Shown: piece after piece, positions 52,407 to 57,871 of the stretch
How the letters are laid out: each line of letters begins with the position of its first letter
Numbering within the stretch: the stretch's first letter is position 1
Assembly: GCA_900315075.1 (NCBI GenBank)
Contig: OMXV01000028.1
Location: 1 to 59,078, forward strand
Origin: an uncultured Prevotellaceae bacterium
GTDB lineage: Bacteria > Bacteroidota > Bacteroidia > Bacteroidales > Bacteroidaceae
DNA: 59,078 nucleotides
Direction: 5' to 3'
The notes under the pieces: model-generated
The model's input: only the letters and a program-made list of their open reading frames with translations
What the model was told of the DNA's origin: nothing
Database searches by the model: none
Made by a program: the position numbers and the translations under genes

Positions 52407-53384
52407 CTATTCATTCAACTTCTCCAATTCGTCCTGAGCTTCCAGGTCGCCTTGGTCGGCTGCTTTTTGAAACCATTCCTTAGCTTGGGCAAGGTCTTCC
52501 TCCACTCCCCATCCGTATTCGTAGCAATAGCCTAAAAGGGTTTGTGCTTCAGCGTAGTCTTGGTTAACTGCTTTCCTAATCCATCGCACAGCCTCATCGT
52601 TGTCTTCTTCCACACCTGTCCCGTATAAGTAGCAGCTTCCTAAATGTGCCTGGCCATAAGCATTCCCTTGATCGGCAGCTTTCCGATACCATCTTGCAGC
52701 CTCTTCCGGATTCGTTTCCACACCTGTTCCATTCTCATAGCAGTAGCCTAAGTTTCCCTGTGCGATGGCATCACCTTGATTGGCTGCTTTTCTAAACCAT
52801 TTCACAGCTTCTTCCTCATCCTCCTCGACAACTGTGCCGTAGTAGTAGAATCGGCCTATGGCGTTTTGGGCATTTGCCTGGTCCTGATTGGCTGCTTTCT
52901 TGTACCAATAAGCGGCTTCTTCTTCATCTGCTTCGATACCGAAACCATTCTCATAGCACACACCTAAGTCATATTGAGCGTCTGCAATACCATCTTTTGC
53001 ATATTCCAACAACTCATCAGAATATTCTGGGCTTTCAACACAGGTATATTCGTTTCTATCCACCCACTCTGTGTCGTCTTCATCCTCATCATTTTCTGAT
53101 GTTCGATTCGACTTCCCATTCCCTAAGAGGAATACTCCTAAAATAACTGCGAGCAGTAAAACACCGCCAACGGAAGACCAAATGATAATCTTACGCTTCT
53201 TGGCCTTCTTTTTATAATCCCCAAATCGAAACGTTCCGTCCTCAAAAAACGAAACGTTTCTTTTTTTTAGCTTTCTTGTGTAAAATATTTTCTTAATTGG
53301 GCGGACATTTTCGTATTCCGAAGGTATATTTCTAAATAGGGGAAAATATACCTTTTTTTTAGAATAAACATAGGAAACTATCAC
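52407..53384 (-). CDS. Sel1-repeat, membrane-anchored 3' half of an interrupted receptor kinase gene
   Basis: The open frame encodes 325 aa, but only residues 50-325 (from 53237) belong to the original gene. The first 47 or so codons come from the foreign insert, with Glu-Asp (48-49) at the junction. The native part begins GTFRFGDYKKKAKKRK, has a membrane segment (IIIWSSVGGVLLLAVILGVFLLG), an acidic linker and five Sel1-like repeats (A-x-x-x-L-G-x-C-Y-x-x-G-x-G-V). Sel1 repeats are helical pairs for protein binding. The only start in frame is a GTG at 53384 inside the insert, and no promoter is seen before it. Joined to the kinase at 56757-57871 the frame is continuous. As it stands this half is probably not expressed or only weakly so. 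Confidence 0.75.
   Translation of the reverse strand: MIVSYVYSKKKVYFPLFRNIPSEYENVRPIKKIFYTRKLKKRNVSFFEDGTFRFGDYKKKAKKRKIIIWSSVGGVLLLAVILGVFLLGNGKSNRTSENDEDEDDTEWVDRNEYTCVESPEYSDELLEYAKDGIADAQYDLGVCYENGFGIEADEEEAAYWYKKAANQDQANAQNAIGRFYYYGTVVEEDEEEAVKWFRKAANQGDAIAQGNLGYCYENGTGVETNPEEAARWYRKAADQGNAYGQAHLGSCYLYGTGVEEDNDEAVRWIRKAVNQDYAEAQTLLGYCYEYGWGVEEDLAQAKEWFQKAADQGDLEAQDELEKLNE
53239..53244. repeat. Flanking 6-bp direct repeat TCCTCA, left copy
   Basis: TCCTCA here matches 56751-56756 at the other end of the insert. Deleting the insert and one copy restores the kinase-Sel1 reading frame, so this is the likely target-site duplication or crossover core. Confidence 0.75.
53321..53360. repeat. 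Inverted repeat near the left end of the insert
   Basis: AAGGTATATTT (53321-53331) and AAATATACCTT (53344-53354) form a perfect 11-bp stem with a 12-nt loop, followed by a T run on the plus strand. It is either a terminator facing outward transcription from the right or a structural end signal. Confidence 0.65.
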
Positions 53385-53467
53385 TTTTCATGCAAGTTCA
53401 TTTTTCCCTGACACCCCGCCAAATCCCCACGTCCAGACGGTTTCAAGCCCATAAAAGCCAAAAACAA

Positions 53468-53477
53468 GGGGGGGGGG
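53468..53477. repeat. G10 homopolymer
   Basis: Ten consecutive G residues lie in noncoding DNA between the insert's left inverted repeat and its first terminator. Confidence 0.8.
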
Positions 53478-53489
53478 AACACCTATAAA

Positions 53490-53515
53490 AAACACACGGG
53501 GGTACCCGTGTGTTT
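53490..53515 (-). terminator. Rho-independent terminator of the 79-aa gene
   Basis: A perfect 11-bp stem (AAACACACGGG and CCCGTGTGTTT) with a 4-nt loop is followed on the minus strand by a short T run. It begins 5 bp past the stop of the 79-aa gene. Confidence 0.85.
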
Positions 53516-53520
53516 CTGTT

Positions 53521-53760
53521 TTACTGTTTCCGCATTTCGGAACATGCACCTATTAATGTTTCAATTATAAACATACCGTCGGATAAATGGGATGCACTAT
53601 TACCACTTTCTATCAGGTTTCTGCAAACCTCAGCGTAAACCGCAAATAAATTTGTGCAAAACTCTTTAGGGGAGTAGTAGGTAGTGAATAAATCTACGAT
53701 ACCATCAATGTTTAATTTTGCGGCCTCACCCGTCAACACAATTGTTTTTGTTTTTTCCAT
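53521..53760 (-). CDS. 79-aa element protein of unknown function
   Basis: The sequence starts MEKTKTIVLTGEAAKLNIDG and is probably alpha-helical after residue 20 (SPKEFCTNLFAVYAEVCRN). No family is recognised. It has its own promoter, a long structured leader and a strong terminator, which together mark it as a genuine, separately controlled gene. It is divergent from the capsid operon, the place where a regulator or immunity-type gene of a phage or satellite often sits. No DNA-binding motif is evident, so this role is inference from position. Confidence 0.65.
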   Translation of the reverse strand: MEKTKTIVLTGEAAKLNIDGIVDLFTTYYSPKEFCTNLFAVYAEVCRNLIESGNSASHLSDGMFIIETLIGACSEMRKQ

Positions 53761-53787
53761 AACGTTTATTTTAGGATAAATAAAAGG

Positions 53788-53857
53788 GCGTGCTTTAGGT
53801 GTCCTATACCTAAACGTTGGGTATTGGGGCGTTTCCGCTTACCACACCATAGCACGC
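53788..53857 (-). ncRNA. Predicted three-way-junction RNA in the leader of the 79-aa gene
   Basis: Read on the minus strand, a closing stem GCGTGCT/AGCACGC (7 bp) encloses two arms. The first has GGTA/TACC and an inner GCG-GAAA-CGC hairpin with a GNRA tetraloop. The second is TTTAGGT/ACCTAAA (7 bp, 7-nt loop). The GAAA loop exists only on the minus strand, which agrees with the promoter. I do not recognise a known riboswitch or ribozyme core. Confidence 0.5.
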
Positions 53858-53913
53858 AAAAAAAGTCTTTAAAAAAAATCTCTGTTTCATTGTACGTTTA
53901 TATTAGGAGAGTG

Positions 53914-53921
53914 CAAAGATA
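53914..53921 (-). promoter_or_regulatory. Promoter -7 box of the 79-aa gene
   Basis: The minus strand reads TATCTTTG, an exact TAnnTTTG match. It gives a leader of roughly 147 nt that contains the structured RNA at 53788-53857. Confidence 0.6.
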
Positions 53922-53980
53922 ATGGTATTTTTTGAATTAGCAAAAAAAATGGAAAAATTTAGTTTAAAGAATATATTGAC

Positions 53981-54091
53981 ACCTCACAACGCCCCGAGAA
54001 CCGCCCACGATGGCACGCAGCACCACCACACCGACAAACCACCCATCACCACCGCCACCACCTCACCAACGCCCCGAGAACCACCCAAAAA
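53981..54091. repeat. C-rich repeat block, left of capsid genes
   Basis: A block very poor in T, starting ACCTCACAAC and ending in CCACCCAAAAA, holds repeat copy 1 (53998-54057). Its 60-bp core is identical to 56160-56219 on the other side of the capsid genes. It contains ATG GCA CGC AGC ACC ACC at 54010, the same start as the 69-aa gene at 56261. Confidence 0.85.
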
Positions 54092-54102
54092 TAAAATACG
54101 CT

Positions 54103-54174
54103 TGAAACGCTTTCATAATTATATGAAACGCTTGCACACTTATTTTTTTTTATCATATTGTAATGCTATTTTTG
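54103..54174 (+). promoter_or_regulatory. Promoter and operator-like repeats of the capsid operon
   Basis: TATTTTTG at 54167-54174 is a -7 box 21 bp before the protease start. Upstream, TGAAACGCTT occurs twice in the same orientation (54103-54112 and 54124-54133), exactly 21 bp apart, and TTTCATA-ATTA-TATGAAA forms an inverted repeat between them. This arrangement suits binding of a dimeric regulator on one DNA face. Confidence 0.55.
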
Positions 54175-54195
54175 CAGCGTTAAAACATTATTATT

Positions 54196-55152
54196 ATGAT
54201 AAACGAAAACACATTTATAGTATCTGACGAAACTGTCAACGGTTTTGGTTATATCATCCTCACGTCTGGTATAGACACGACAAGGTTTGAGAAAAACCCC
54301 GTTATGCTCTATATGCACGAAAGAAAAACCGTTGTAGGCAAATGGGAGAACATTAGAAAAGACGGTAAAAAACTTTTGGCGGATGCCGTTTTTGATGACA
54401 CCACACCAATTGGAAAGCAAGTAAAAAAACAAGTTGAAAAAGGTTTTTTGCGATCTGCAAGTATCGGGGTTGATATTATAAAAGAGGAAATTATAAACGG
54501 TGTCAAAACTGTTACAGAATGTGAACTGTTCGAAATTTCAATTGTAGATGTACCATCCAATTCTAACGCCCTAAAACTATATAAGAAAAACGGTCGTAAA
54601 CTGTTGCGGCTATCATTACATGTTGAAGATTTGCGCACCGCTATTATTGAATTACTCGGACTTGATAAAAACGTTTCAGACGATGATATAATAGCAGAAA
54701 TACAATCATTGGTAAACATCCCCGACAATACCGAAACCCAAGTTTGCCTGGATATTAAAAACGGGTATATTGAAAGCGCATCAAAAAAAGATTTTTTGAC
54801 AATGGCGAAAATATCACCCACCACATATAATTCATTTATTGCAAGTGAGCGTTCAAAACGGGAAAAAGCCGTTGAAATGACTATTAAAAAAGCCATAGAC
54901 GAACAAAGAATAACAACACACGATAAGGAACTATATAAACACATCGGTTTAGAATTGGGTAACGAAACTATCGTTAGACTGTTTGAAAAAATACCGAAGC
55001 CTATACGCATCATCGAAACACTAAAACCCAATCGAGACAAAAAAAATTGGAGTCTCGAAGATTATCGGAGATACGCACCGCAAGAGTTAAAAGATAACCC
55101 CGAACTTTATGCAATGCTATTGAAAAAAGAAAATAACCCTTTAAAAAATTAA
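54196..55152 (+). CDS. HK97-family phage prohead protease with C-terminal scaffold-like domain
   Basis: This 318-aa protein has the prohead protease fold (PF04586) over residues about 1-135: NPVMLYMHERKTVVGKW with the catalytic His, GFLRSASIGVDI with the catalytic Ser, and ELFEISIVDVPSNSNALKLY near the end of the domain. The C-terminal half (about 150-318) is helical and charged and ends with YRRYAPQELKDNPELYAMLL, like scaffold or delta-type domains fused to some proteases. In HK97-type phages the protease cleaves scaffold and capsid during head maturation. The capsid gene follows by 4 bp. All catalytic positions look intact. Confidence 0.85.
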   Translation: MINENTFIVSDETVNGFGYIILTSGIDTTRFEKNPVMLYMHERKTVVGKWENIRKDGKKLLADAVFDDTTPIGKQVKKQVEKGFLRSASIGVDIIKEEIINGVKTVTECELFEISIVDVPSNSNALKLYKKNGRKLLRLSLHVEDLRTAIIELLGLDKNVSDDDIIAEIQSLVNIPDNTETQVCLDIKNGYIESASKKDFLTMAKISPTTYNSFIASERSKREKAVEMTIKKAIDEQRITTHDKELYKHIGLELGNETIVRLFEKIPKPIRIIETLKPNRDKKNWSLEDYRRYAPQELKDNPELYAMLLKKENNPLKN

Positions 55153-55156
55153 CTGT

Positions 55157-56068
55157 ATGTCGTTAAACAAGCAAATTTGGGTAAAGCAAATAATGAATGG
55201 CTTTTATCCCGACCGAAGTTTTTTAAACAAAGTCGTTAGTTTTAACGATTTTGTAGAAGGTGACACCCTACACATACCGAGTGCAGGTATTGACCCCGAA
55301 GTGTTAATTAATAACACCACTTATCCTATCCCCATTGTAAGTAGAGAAGATACCGACAATGAAATAACTTTAGATTTGTTCGAAACACAAAACACATATA
55401 TTCGACGCCCAGAGGCTATAGAATATTCATACGATAAATTGGAAAGTGTAATCTATCAGCACAGAAGCACGCTTCAGGCAAGCACATCGAAAAAAGCCGC
55501 ACATGCCTTTGCACCCCTAAAAGACACCGACAAAACACCCGTTATCCTTACGTCGGGGGAAATTACAAACGGGCGTAAACGTATGACGTTTGAAGACCTT
55601 TTGCGATTGAAAGAACGTTTTGACAACGCTCTAATACCGTTAGAAGACCGTTATATTATACTCCATCCGTCACACGTTACAGACCTTTTGTTAGAAGACG
55701 TAAAACTATTCAAACAGTTAACAGATATAGTTGACGGTGAACCTATGCGTTTTGCTGGTTTTGGGTGCTATCAATTCCCATTTATGCCTACATACTCGGA
55801 AATTGACAACGTTTTAACAAAAATTCCTTTTGATGAAACACAAAGCGATAATTTTGCAAGTGTGGCGTTTCAAGCAAAAGAGGTTATGAAAGCAGACGGG
55901 GAAATTCACATGTACTCACGCTATGACGACCCCGAAGAACGTGCAACTATTGTAGGTTTCGACAAACGTTTTATAGCTATGCCAATCCGCAATATGGGTA
56001 TCGGTGCAATCGTTAGCGCAACAGTAGAACAAAGCGAAAACGAGGAAAACGGAGACGACACCGAGTAA
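55157..56068 (+). CDS. Phage major capsid protein (HK97-fold type)
   Basis: This 303-aa protein directly follows the prohead protease. It starts MSLNKQIWVKQIMNGFYP and has an early beta-rich part (SREDTDNEITLDLFETQNTYI), a helical spine-like region (RKRMTFEDLLRLKERFDN) and a C-terminal beta part with GFDKRFIAMPIRNMGIGAIVS. Order, length and pattern fit the capsid proteins of Bacteroidetes tailed phages; the assignment relies partly on the neighbour. A short acidic tail ends the protein. No portal or terminase gene precedes it, which is unusual. It may assemble into an empty shell, a satellite head or an encapsulin-like compartment. Confidence 0.75.
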   Translation: MSLNKQIWVKQIMNGFYPDRSFLNKVVSFNDFVEGDTLHIPSAGIDPEVLINNTTYPIPIVSREDTDNEITLDLFETQNTYIRRPEAIEYSYDKLESVIYQHRSTLQASTSKKAAHAFAPLKDTDKTPVILTSGEITNGRKRMTFEDLLRLKERFDNALIPLEDRYIILHPSHVTDLLLEDVKLFKQLTDIVDGEPMRFAGFGCYQFPFMPTYSEIDNVLTKIPFDETQSDNFASVAFQAKEVMKADGEIHMYSRYDDPEERATIVGFDKRFIAMPIRNMGIGAIVSATVEQSENEENGDDTE

Positions 56069-56081
56069 TAAAAAATATTGT

Positions 56082-56120
56082 GTGGTGTCAAACTTTTATT
56101 TTTAATATGTTTGACACCAC
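56082..56120 (+). terminator. Terminator of the capsid operon
   Basis: A perfect 12-bp stem, GTGGTGTCAAAC and GTTTGACACCAC, with a 15-nt AT-rich loop starts 13 bp past the capsid stop codon and is followed by ATTTTC. Confidence 0.75.
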
Positions 56121-56137
56121 ATTTTCAAACACACCAC

Positions 56138-56288
56138 CGCCAACACCTCACCACCCCGAGAACCGCCCACGATGGCACGCAGCACCACCACACCGACAAA
56201 CCACCCATCACCACCGCCAACACCTCACCACCCCGAGAACCACCCAAAAAACCGCCCACGATGGCACGCAGCACCACCACACCGACAA
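56138..56288. repeat. C-rich repeat block, right of capsid genes (two copies)
   Basis: Copy 2 has a 60-bp core at 56160-56219 identical to the left block. Copy 3, shortened, is at 56251-56288. Each contains the motif ACGATGGCACGCAGCACC. The ATG of copy 3 begins the 69-aa gene, while the same ATG in copies 1 and 2 opens only short Pro/His-rich frames. Confidence 0.85.
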
Positions 56289-56470
56289 CCATAAATAAAT
56301 ATTTTAATCCTAAAGGTATTTCAATTCAAAAACGCATAAAAGAAGTAAATGAAATTTACGACAACCATATAAAAGACGGTGTGACAAATGCGTTTATTTG
56401 GAGAAATTATATATACCCAAAATTCGGTATATCTATACGCACATTTTATTCATATTTAAAAAGAGGGTGA
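56261..56470 (+). CDS. Small HTH-like element protein (69 aa)
   Basis: From the ATG in repeat copy 3 the protein reads MARSTTTPTTINKYFNPKG, then ISIQKRIKEVNEIYDNHIKDG and NAFIWRNYIYPKFGISIRTF. The last two blocks form a helix-turn-helix-like pattern ending in IRTFYSYLKRG. A longer frame to 56078 exists but would translate the repeats, so the shorter start is preferred. Small HTH proteins in this place in phage maps include terminase small subunits and regulators; it is too short for a typical small terminase. It might bind the C-rich repeats or the 12-bp repeats just downstream. Confidence 0.55.
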   Translation: MARSTTTPTTINKYFNPKGISIQKRIKEVNEIYDNHIKDGVTNAFIWRNYIYPKFGISIRTFYSYLKRG

Positions 56471-56495
56471 TTTTGCATACCGTTCGTTTTTCCTT

Positions 56496-56531
56496 TTTGT
56501 CCGTCCATTTGTCCGTCCATTTGTCCACCCA
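56496..56531. repeat. 12-bp tandem repeat, three copies
   Basis: TTTGTCCGTCCA at 56496-56507 and 56508-56519 is followed by TTTGTCCACCCA at 56520-56531. The array lies about 25 bp past the HTH-like gene and resembles iteron-type protein-binding sites. Confidence 0.8.
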
Positions 56532-56668
56532 TTGGTCAATTTTTCCACTTATAATTTTACTAATTGTTCCAAAATTCCATATATTTTAAGCAAGAATAGG
56601 TTAAAAATTAACCCCAAATTATACATAATTATACCTTTCGTTTTTTTTTTGCACTCCCTTATAAAAGT

Positions 56669-56709
56669 CTAAAAACCCCGATAAACACTATATTTTTGAC
56701 GGTTTTTAG
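56669..56709. repeat. Inverted repeat near the right end of the insert
   Basis: CTAAAAACC (56669-56677) and GGTTTTTAG (56701-56709) form a perfect 9-bp inverted repeat with a 23-bp spacer, 41 bp from the right edge. The kinase fragment stops at the TAG within it. Confidence 0.6.
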
Positions 56710-57871
56710 TACGTTCTACAAACATCCCTTTCGTTTTAAGCCCTATATTTTCCTCATCATTGTTAATGTTACTCCCGGAGGGGGTGAATCCACCGTTCCC
56801 AGAGGGCGTAGGCGTATATCCTCCATTTCCTGTAAATGCGAATCCACCGTTGCCAATGGGGGGCGGTGTGGGTGTATATCCTCCATTTCCTGTGGGTGTG
56901 AATCCACCTGTCTGTTGAGGTGTGTAATGGATAGGTCCAGGTTGCTGGTTTCCTCCATTTCCTGCAAGATTGGGCTGAAAATTCCAAAGTAGTGTGTCTA
57001 ATTCCTGCACAGACTGGATGCGATTGCGCTTAAGGGGAGCCATCGCCTTGCTGACAATGGCAATCAGTTGGCTGGGAACACTGACGTTGCGCAGGGGCTG
57101 CATGGGGAGTCCTTCGTTGATTACAACGGATGACTCTGGAGGCACCACACCGGTAAGCATCTTGTACATCGTGGCACCCAAAGCATAGATATCGAGGGTG
57201 ACAGGCAGCGACCCGTCCTGACGGTAGGTGGCCTGCTCGATGGGGGCGTAACCAGGAGTGCCTAAGCCCAACGAGGTGCTCTCCTCTGGCTCACCGTTGG
57301 TGTTGTACTGTTTTGCAAGTCCGAAGTCGATGAGTTTCACTATGCCCGACTGGGTGAGCATGATGTTTTTGGGCTTCAAGTCGAGGTGGAGCATACGGTT
57401 ACCATGCATATATCGCAGGGCATTGCACACCTGATGGGTGATGTCCACTGCCTGTGAAGGGGCAAGCTTACCATTCTTCCTGATGAGTTCATCCACAGTG
57501 CCCCCATCAATATATTCCATCACATAATAGGCGGTGTTGTTCTCCTCAAACACTTCAAGCACCTTCACAATATTGTCGTGGTGAAGATGGGAAAGGCTCA
57601 TTGCCTCGCGGATGAATTTCCGCTTGTAGTCTTTCACCAAGGTGCTGTCAGTTTGGTCGATGCTCTTGCCGTCGAGAGAGCGAGTGTTCATCGTCGAGAT
57701 GAAAAACTCCTTGATGGTAACGTAAACATCAACGTCCATGTTGCCCAACTGACCGTTGAGCGACATGTGGGTGACCGCTAAGTAAGTGATACCAAAACCA
57801 CCCTGGCCAAGCATCTTGACGATGGTATATTTGCCATTTTGAAGGGTTACCCCATTGTTTAATATCGACAT
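56669..57871 (-). CDS. Ser/Thr protein kinase, 5' half of an interrupted receptor kinase gene
   Basis: The frame encodes 400 aa. The kinase domain (about 14-290) is intact: GQGGFG in the glycine-rich loop, TIKEFF with the ATP-binding Lys, HLDLKPKNIML as catalytic loop, LIDFGLAKQ as DFG motif and GTPGYAPIEQ in the activation segment. A linker of NGGYTPTP/GNGGFTP repeats follows. Native sequence ends near residue 373 (Asp-Glu, 56753); the last 27 residues (from the 56750 junction, ending KYSVYRGF) come from the insert. Joining at TCCTCA continues into DGTFRFGDYKKK and the membrane and Sel1 parts, giving 650 codons-1 stop in frame. In the current form the kinase is soluble, without its anchor and Sel1 domain. 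It has its own strong promoter. Confidence 0.85.
   Translation of the reverse strand: MSILNNGVTLQNGKYTIVKMLGQGGFGITYLAVTHMSLNGQLGNMDVDVYVTIKEFFISTMNTRSLDGKSIDQTDSTLVKDYKRKFIREAMSLSHLHHDNIVKVLEVFEENNTAYYVMEYIDGGTVDELIRKNGKLAPSQAVDITHQVCNALRYMHGNRMLHLDLKPKNIMLTQSGIVKLIDFGLAKQYNTNGEPEESTSLGLGTPGYAPIEQATYRQDGSLPVTLDIYALGATMYKMLTGVVPPESSVVINEGLPMQPLRNVSVPSQLIAIVSKAMAPLKRNRIQSVQELDTLLWNFQPNLAGNGGNQQPGPIHYTPQQTGGFTPTGNGGYTPTPPPIGNGGFAFTGNGGYTPTPSGNGGFTPSGSNINNDEENIGLKTKGMFVERTKNRQKYSVYRGF
56751..56756. repeat. Flanking 6-bp direct repeat TCCTCA, right copy
   Basis: Matches 53239-53244. It lies inside the kinase gene at the point where foreign sequence begins. Confidence 0.75.

Follow-up and report, generated by a model that had tools for sequence, protein, structure and literature searches.

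A protease-capsid element in a Prevotellaceae genome

The DNA analysed here, the window, is the 59,078-nucleotide stretch formed by contig OMXV01000028.1 (positions 1 to 59,078) of an uncultured Prevotellaceae bacterium, assembly GCA_900315075.1. Near one end of the window, a host gene is split by a small element that encodes a phage-type prohead protease and major capsid protein, and this element is the subject of the analysis. When its borders are placed by the end sequences of its family, it measures 3535 bp (window 53213-56747) and has the following features:

53209..53212, no strand: target duplication, left copy, TTTT
53213..53236, plus strand: left border, right-end type TATAATCCCCAAATCGAAACGTTC, 2/24 mismatches to the family consensus; a type common to the ends of full prophages, and presumed to be a candidate end site for a Mu-like transposase
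53246..53256, plus strand: second AAAACGAA-type site close to the left border, of putative function
53521..53760, minus strand: open reading frame (ORF) of 79 aa directly behind the c4-2 RNA, its start complementary to the c4-2 loop over 8 nt
53782..53861, minus strand: c4-2 RNA (RF02944), 62.3 bits (gathering score 41), upstream of the 79-aa gene on the same strand
53987..54068, no strand: GC-rich direct repeat, left copy, 96% identical to 56149-56230
54196..55152, plus strand: prohead protease (S78), 318 aa; Pfam PF04586 at 46.5 bits (cut-off 21), phrog_11321 and head-maturation protease families
55157..56068, plus strand: major capsid protein, HK97-type, 303 aa; phrog_267, E=2.4e-16
56081..56121, plus strand: perfect 13-bp inverted repeat behind the capsid gene, a likely terminator
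56149..56288, no strand: GC-rich repeat, right copies (56149-56230 and 56239-56288)
56261..56470, plus strand: small helix-turn-helix (HTH)-like protein, 69 aa, with a homologous gene close to the late operon in full Mu-like prophages; putative function
56631..56644, minus strand: internal AAAACGAAAGGTAT site close to the right border, of putative function
56724..56747, minus strand: right border, left-end type TATAGGGCTTAAAACGAAAGGGAT (read on the minus strand), 6/24 mismatches to the family consensus
56748..56751, no strand: target duplication, right copy, TTTT

An earlier, sequence-only reading of this DNA had described an insert of about 3.5 kb with a prohead protease and a major capsid gene, and the two family matches listed above bear this out. 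In addition, the profile of the capsid family matches a solved major capsid protein, 9jwb (E=1.8e-5). The same reading counted four genes, all of which are present; it overlooked the c4-2 RNA. Its statement that integrase, transposase, portal, terminase and tail genes are absent also holds for the window element. Comparison with a phage reference set finds no terL, portal, tape-measure, tail or MuA/MuB gene among the element's genes, and the ORF list, Pfam and PHROG give no integrase between its ends. The element's four ORFs have no match to integrase, primase or Sid/Psu families. Among the 404 window ORFs of at least 40 aa, only the insert's four genes match the phage reference set, into which they had themselves been entered.

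The two small genes are less easily named. Pfam and PHROG comparisons return no protein-family match for the 79-aa gene, which is the presumed target of the c4-2 RNA, as judged from its position and complementarity. The small HTH-like protein has no confident family, and no family match backs an activator role; its homologues sit near late genes in some full prophages. The GC-rich repeats flank the protease-capsid cassette, and their core was not found in any other locus examined. A search of the window's own genome with the insert returned a single other short match, to a part of the insert other than these repeats. The S78 and ClpP-type proteases of the window and of loci L033, L034 and L035 share a C-terminal motif, W(S/T)LxDYR(R/K)(Y/F)xP, perhaps a capsid-binding scaffold tail.

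Borders and the interrupted host gene

The split host gene encodes a Sel1-repeat protein kinase that has a membrane segment (domains read from the sequence), and its halves are now separate minus-strand ORFs, 56669-57871 and 52407-53384. Removal of the element and one TTTT restores a frame of 681 aa. The sequence-only reading had placed exact edges at 53239..56756, on a 6-bp direct repeat, TCCTCA. Excision at TCCTCA likewise restores the host frame, here of 690 aa. Because both excisions are in frame, the frame cannot decide the borders, and the end sequences do. TCCTCA was rejected as the border: sequence beyond it matches the family ends, and the corrected excision is in frame too. The repeat is a coincidence, and the ends lie at 53213 and 56747 with a 4-bp duplication. 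A 128-aa query found no insert-free orthologue of the kinase gene in 150 genomes, so the empty site rests on the frame and the ends.

Both end types were scanned in 29 satellite loci and the window, and both could be placed in 15 elements, the window included. Two further loci from Phocaeicola oris (L088, L263) have both ends and represent the same element as L092, and were not counted; one or both ends were not found in 13 others. For loci with three or more matching sites, the two that face each other around the genes were picked by eye, with the flanks in view. For the end match itself, the chance level is 9 matches at no more than 7 mismatches in 451,730 bp, over both patterns and strands (one shuffle of the other loci). 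All 15 placed elements are flanked by an exact 4-bp duplication, as compared to 0 or 1 of 15 in each of twelve other registers. Their lengths run from 3535 to 5719 bp (median 4221). The TTTT duplication of the window is weak taken alone, because it lies within a T-run; its 4 bp are the length found in all the placed elements.

The same arrangement can be followed in other genomes. In P. oris 14-104, the element makes up a contig of 3967 bp by itself. Six further contig ends overlap it by 125-127 bp, three at either side, so this genome has at least three insertions; the duplications agree in two of them (CTCT and CATT). These copies were at first read as having a 5- or 6-bp duplication, which was rejected by elements that match at exactly 4. 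In Parabacteroides distasonis NM39_I3 (L113), the satellite contig carries cov_1520 in its title and has two different left neighbours that share 55 bp, which suggests at least two copies or amplification. Across 398 genomes of the window's genus, the only gene-level matches to the window element, among the matches listed, fall in satellites of the same family; the remaining listed matches are mostly short, many of them at one promoter-like stretch. The family has both its ends and its duplication length in common with an autonomous element, and on this sequence evidence it can be classed with non-autonomous Mu-type transposons, the window element fitting with 2 mismatches of 24 for the right-end type and 6 for the left-end type.

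A family of probable capsid-bearing satellites

A search with the capsid protein finds a match in 23 of 199 genomes, the window's own included, and a four-row capsid profile finds one in 37 of the 398 genomes of the genus. Viral contigs (IMG/VR) scanned with single window proteins gave no match; the capsid profile did match there, and altogether yields 43 loci in named genomes and 25 in viral contigs. Three annotated Mu-like phages, together with derived proteins, served as references for labelling the genes of these 68 loci.

The loci fall into two kinds. In 43 of the 68, the capsid is at least 46% identical to that of the window and there is no terL, portal or tape-measure label; 7 of these satellite-type contigs are shorter than 5 kb and prove little on gene absence. 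In the other 25, capsid identity is at most 43%, 20 have terL, and all have further head, tail or lysis genes. As judged by the terL, portal and tape-measure labels, the complete-virion gene set is missing from all 43 satellite loci and from the window. The protease-capsid pair recurs in many genomes with the same kind of ends and without the other virion genes; this is the check that the sequence-only reading had proposed, and its outcome favours a minimal satellite packaged by a helper phage. The family spans several Bacteroidota orders and families, Flavobacteriales included.

Single phage-gene labels do occur among the 43: neck (L093, L112), tail (L107), protein D (L135, L136), amidase (L103) and, in several loci, repressor-like genes. 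In L135 the protein D gene is identified as a baseplate hub, L136 has a gene resembling a baseplate hub, and a spike gene with weak support is present in L118. Both L116 and L117 have stretches in common with prophage genes that lie downstream of the capsid. TerS-like HTH proteins are encoded at L131 3693-3959, L108 3597-4382 and L122 6713-7255; they would offer a possible way to redirect packaging. The L108 protein matches antirepressors as well.

In a tree of 93 distinct capsid sequences, the 41 satellite capsids are set apart from 52 capsids of Bacteroidota Mu-like phages by one branch (support 99/99). This branch is found in 98% of bootstrap trees, and none of 500 shuffles is as low. The window capsid lies inside a 22-row subgroup with support 100/100. 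The ratio of nonsynonymous to synonymous rates (dN/dS) is 0.023-0.099 for the capsid in the 9 of 12 pairs with usable dS, and 0.063-0.369 for the protease in ten pairs; both window pairs and L095/L096 are unusable for the capsid, being saturated or nearly identical. By these ratios, the shell proteins of the relatives are under purifying selection.

Relatives with and without transposase

A MuA homologue is present in 12 of the 43 satellite loci, all of them outside the 22-row subgroup of the window, in which no element has MuA. L111 and L116, also outside that subgroup, are likewise without a MuA label. The clearest MuA case is Hoylesella marshii (L034 1388-8058), with a repressor, a Ner-like gene, MuA, MuB, a ClpP-type protease and the capsid in about 7.2 kb. 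ClpP-type protease and capsid accompany MuA in L034, L118 and L136, and such relatives are probably an ancestral grade. From these data we infer an order from full phage to MuA-bearing satellite to MuA-less satellite. Because related elements carry MuA and MuB, and phages with the same ends exist, the missing transposase of the window element is explained. At L090 5775-6197, a 140-aa MuA-like fragment lies outside the satellite except for 28 bp, as if the satellite had landed beside an older Mu-like remnant.

The c4-2 antisense RNA

The c4-2 RNA reaches its gathering score in 22 of the 23 loci of the window's subgroup, the miss being L107. Elsewhere it was not found, neither in the 12 satellite loci scanned outside this subgroup, which include short contigs, nor in the prophage of P. 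oris described below; L110, L112, L116-L119, L128, L130 and L135 stood outside the scan. In all 22, the next ATG gene of at least 60 aa begins 17-28 nt behind the RNA, and in 17 of the 22 the longest antisense match within 400 nt falls at the start of that gene. The loops covary with their targets: own loop-target pairs average 8.4 nt, as compared to 5.0 when swapped, with none of 20,000 permutations as high, and the 18 distinct loops give 8.2 vs 5.0 nt, again with none of 20,000. The poorest matches are L101 (4 nt) and L099 (6 nt). The case for pairing, a predicted interaction, rests on position and covariation. Between elements, the gene behind c4-2 is strongly divergent, and the loop usually matches its start; diversifying immunity types would be expected to show this pattern, if the predicted pairing is correct. 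A literature search on c4 RNA found no paper on c4-2.

Mu-like prophages as putative helpers

P. oris also contains a full Mu-like prophage, 33,388 bp long, which encodes MuA, MuB, terminase, portal and tail as well as a protease and a capsid protein of its own. Over 24 bp, the right end of this prophage is the same as that of the satellite; its left end agrees at 24/27, and a second block about 100 bp inside agrees at 28/32. Genome G488, host of satellite L097, has a 40,149-bp prophage with terminase and capsid genes, the same end types and the duplication GTTT. Satellite and full Mu-like prophage are therefore co-resident in P. oris and in G488. In the window's genus, there are two such prophages in G075 and one left end in G118; the G118 phage is nearly identical to one of the G075 prophages, and the left ends of these two have 0/24 mismatches to the satellite consensus. 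A matching 4-bp duplication flanks 5 of the 6 full prophages with both ends found (G477, G488, two in G075, two in G016), among them those mapped to G016 C1 117540-152838 and to G075 C4 1108267-1149262 and 1238324-1272647.

The deposited sequence of Porphyromonas phage BK068093 starts with TATAGGGCACAAAACGA and ends with CGTTTTGCCGATTATA, and the window end at 56724..56747 resembles the deposited left end of Porphyromonas phage012a. Porphyromonas transposable phages are bounded by a 4-bp repeat, according to PMC10367356. PMC12135933 describes hankyphage as packaging host DNA by headful, with 29-31 bp at one end and 1-2.3 kb at the other.

A probable transposable satellite with its own shell

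Taken together, the ends, the gene content and the relatives make it very probable that the element is a phage satellite that transposes non-autonomously: a mini-Mu of natural origin that brings its own shell, moved by a helper transposase and presumably packaged with helper terminase, portal and tail. The sequence-only reading had offered a minimal satellite packaged by a helper phage as one option. The evidence favours the satellite, with packaging as a predicted step; the 6-bp repeat to which that option was tied is not its border.

The proposed cycle would involve: residence in the chromosome, where the satellite lies between Mu-type ends; activation by a hankyphage-like helper, induced or infecting, whose MuA and MuB would act on the satellite ends, transposing and replicating it; and assembly of a hybrid particle. 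Helper-driven transposition would leave 4-bp duplications, and the ends, duplications and copies are those observed here. The satellite would make its own protease and capsid protein, and the small HTH-like protein may turn on late genes. Helper terminase would then load the satellite, via the helper portal, into a shell built from the satellite's capsid protein, and the particle would receive its tail from the helper. As speculation, a 4.2-kb genome and the host DNA flanking it could be housed in a shell far smaller than that of the helper. In the dormant state, and like P1 c4 or P4 CI RNA, the c4-2 RNA may block translation of the gene behind it, to whose start its loop is complementary.

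Several observations weigh against this proposal. With 2 and 6 mismatches of 24, the ends of the window element fit less well, and its end types look swapped relative to the gene cassette: the right-end type is upstream of the protease in the window and L099 (60-3996), and downstream of the capsid gene in the other 13 placed elements. The third P. oris pair, AATA / CATA, matches at 3 of 4 duplication bases, and the second G016 prophage is mismatched (TATA vs TAAA). In the capsid tree, some phage rows sit on long branches, and the root was set at the midpoint. Shuffled sequence gives loop-target matches at least as long for several elements; the window match is 8 nt, as compared to a shuffled mean of 6.9 and maximum of 10. 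Satellite and prophage capsids in P. oris are only 31% identical, so that compatibility with the helper portal is a presumption.

The distribution of helpers adds to these points. In the window's genome, a draft assembly that is 7% contaminated, a terminase profile (positive control G016) detected no helper terminase, and a helper search with satellite MuA (no control) gave no match. No helper terminase was found in 25 of 35 other satellite genomes. Mu-like terminase is only moderately commoner in satellite genomes, 10/35 vs 21/198 of the order sample (p=0.012, a comparison not matched by taxon). Finally, when 15 pairings of satellite and prophage (11 prophage regions, several contigs ending early) were compared directly, G477 and G506 alone had similar ends among the matches listed, at most nine for each comparison.

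The alternative that survives best is an interference element, which would transpose with its helper and use capsid and protease to poison helper assembly instead of carrying its own DNA. Known satellites often inhibit their helpers, and at 31% identity to the adjoining prophage capsid, the satellite capsid of P. oris might give mixed shells that fail. The spread over several orders and families, including Flavobacteriales, suggests cell-to-cell transfer, however, and both shell proteins are under purifying selection, making this explanation unlikely.

Decay of Mu-like prophages, with internal deletions leaving protease and capsid by chance, is quite improbable. The two genes are adjacent in full Mu-like phages, such that a deletion could spare them, and some copies are broken (L128, G426). 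Against this stand a capsid group apart from the sampled phage capsids, low capsid dN/dS in relatives, paired ends and duplications in all 15 placed elements within 3535-5719 bp, the multiple insertions in P. oris, and a c4-2 RNA that was not detected in the prophage of that genome. The sequence-only reading had also argued against simple decay, and the single capsid group and the selection seen in relatives agree with it.

A shell-forming transposon, which would take only the transposase from a helper and transfer in tail-less particles or vesicles without helper structural proteins, is highly improbable. It would account for a window element with no packaging or tail gene and for relatives that keep MuA and MuB. 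However, we know of no route by which an HK97-type shell is filled without terminase, and relatives with baseplate-hub, weakly supported spike or TerS-like HTH genes point to phage particles. A domesticated, encapsulin-like host nanocompartment, also raised in the sequence-only reading, would fit an HK97-type capsid with little else and is extremely improbable, given the prohead protease, transposon ends, target duplications and several copies in the P. oris genome.

A transposable satellite with its own shell, if correct, would combine a helper's replicative transposition with a replaced shell, linking satellites, miniature inverted-repeat transposable elements (MITEs) and Mu biology. The small capsid-only loci seen across Bacteroidota would be accounted for, and Rfam family c4-2 would gain a setting and a likely role. 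It would also provide a small system for studying capsid-size control, and how a foreign shell accepts a helper portal and tail.

Comparison with known systems

Capsid-forming satellites, P4-like RNA immunity and Mu-like phages are each already known. Phage satellites are usually defined with integrase and attachment sites, according to the abstract of PMC13376191. In a 2024 review (PMC11389934), a term search finds neither 'Mu-like' nor 'transposable phage'; the review names PICMI and other minimal satellites, and describes MITEs as without protein genes. A literature search found, among the papers listed, no satellite that moves by Mu-type transposition, whether or not it has a MuA of its own, and novelty in print is to that extent lightly tested. 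The family probably constitutes an undescribed satellite class: natural mini-Mu elements of Bacteroidota that were first reduced to transposition and shell genes, one derived subgroup of which then also lost the transposase, retained the helper ends and gained a c4-type RNA as immunity switch, and which would travel in small shells of their own with helper tails. There is a fair chance that specialists would give Mu-type transposing satellites their own class.

Like PICMI and other minimal satellites, which are integrase-based, the element has a very small genome that would lean on a helper. It resembles capsid-forming phage-inducible chromosomal islands (cfPICIs) as a satellite with its own capsid that would draw other parts from a helper. 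These islands have an integrase and a fuller head and packaging set; the element, in contrast, has transposon ends, no integrase, and only protease and capsid, without terminase or portal. The likeness to P4 lies in a C4-type antisense RNA with a complementary target and in a predicted need for structural genes of a helper. The differences are that P4 uses Sid to reshape its helper's capsid and carries an integrase and a primase, whereas the element has its own capsid and no replication gene. The c4-2 RNA and target start likewise resemble c4 and icd of phages P1 and P7, to which the CI RNA used by P4 is related. Unlike an encapsulin, the element has a protease gene and transposon ends, and its family is present in several copies in P. 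oris. Mini-Mu, a laboratory construct, and MITEs are transposed in trans through their end sequences, as proposed here; unlike either, the element encodes a phage shell and a c4-type RNA.

The closest likeness is to Bacteroidota Mu-like phages (the hankyphage family, Porphyromonas transposable phages and Peternella), which have the same ends, 4-bp duplication, protease-capsid pair and small HTH-like gene, and share MuA and MuB with part of the satellite family. The satellites differ from these phages in lacking terminase, portal and tail set, in being about one-tenth the size, and in having capsids that form a separate group.

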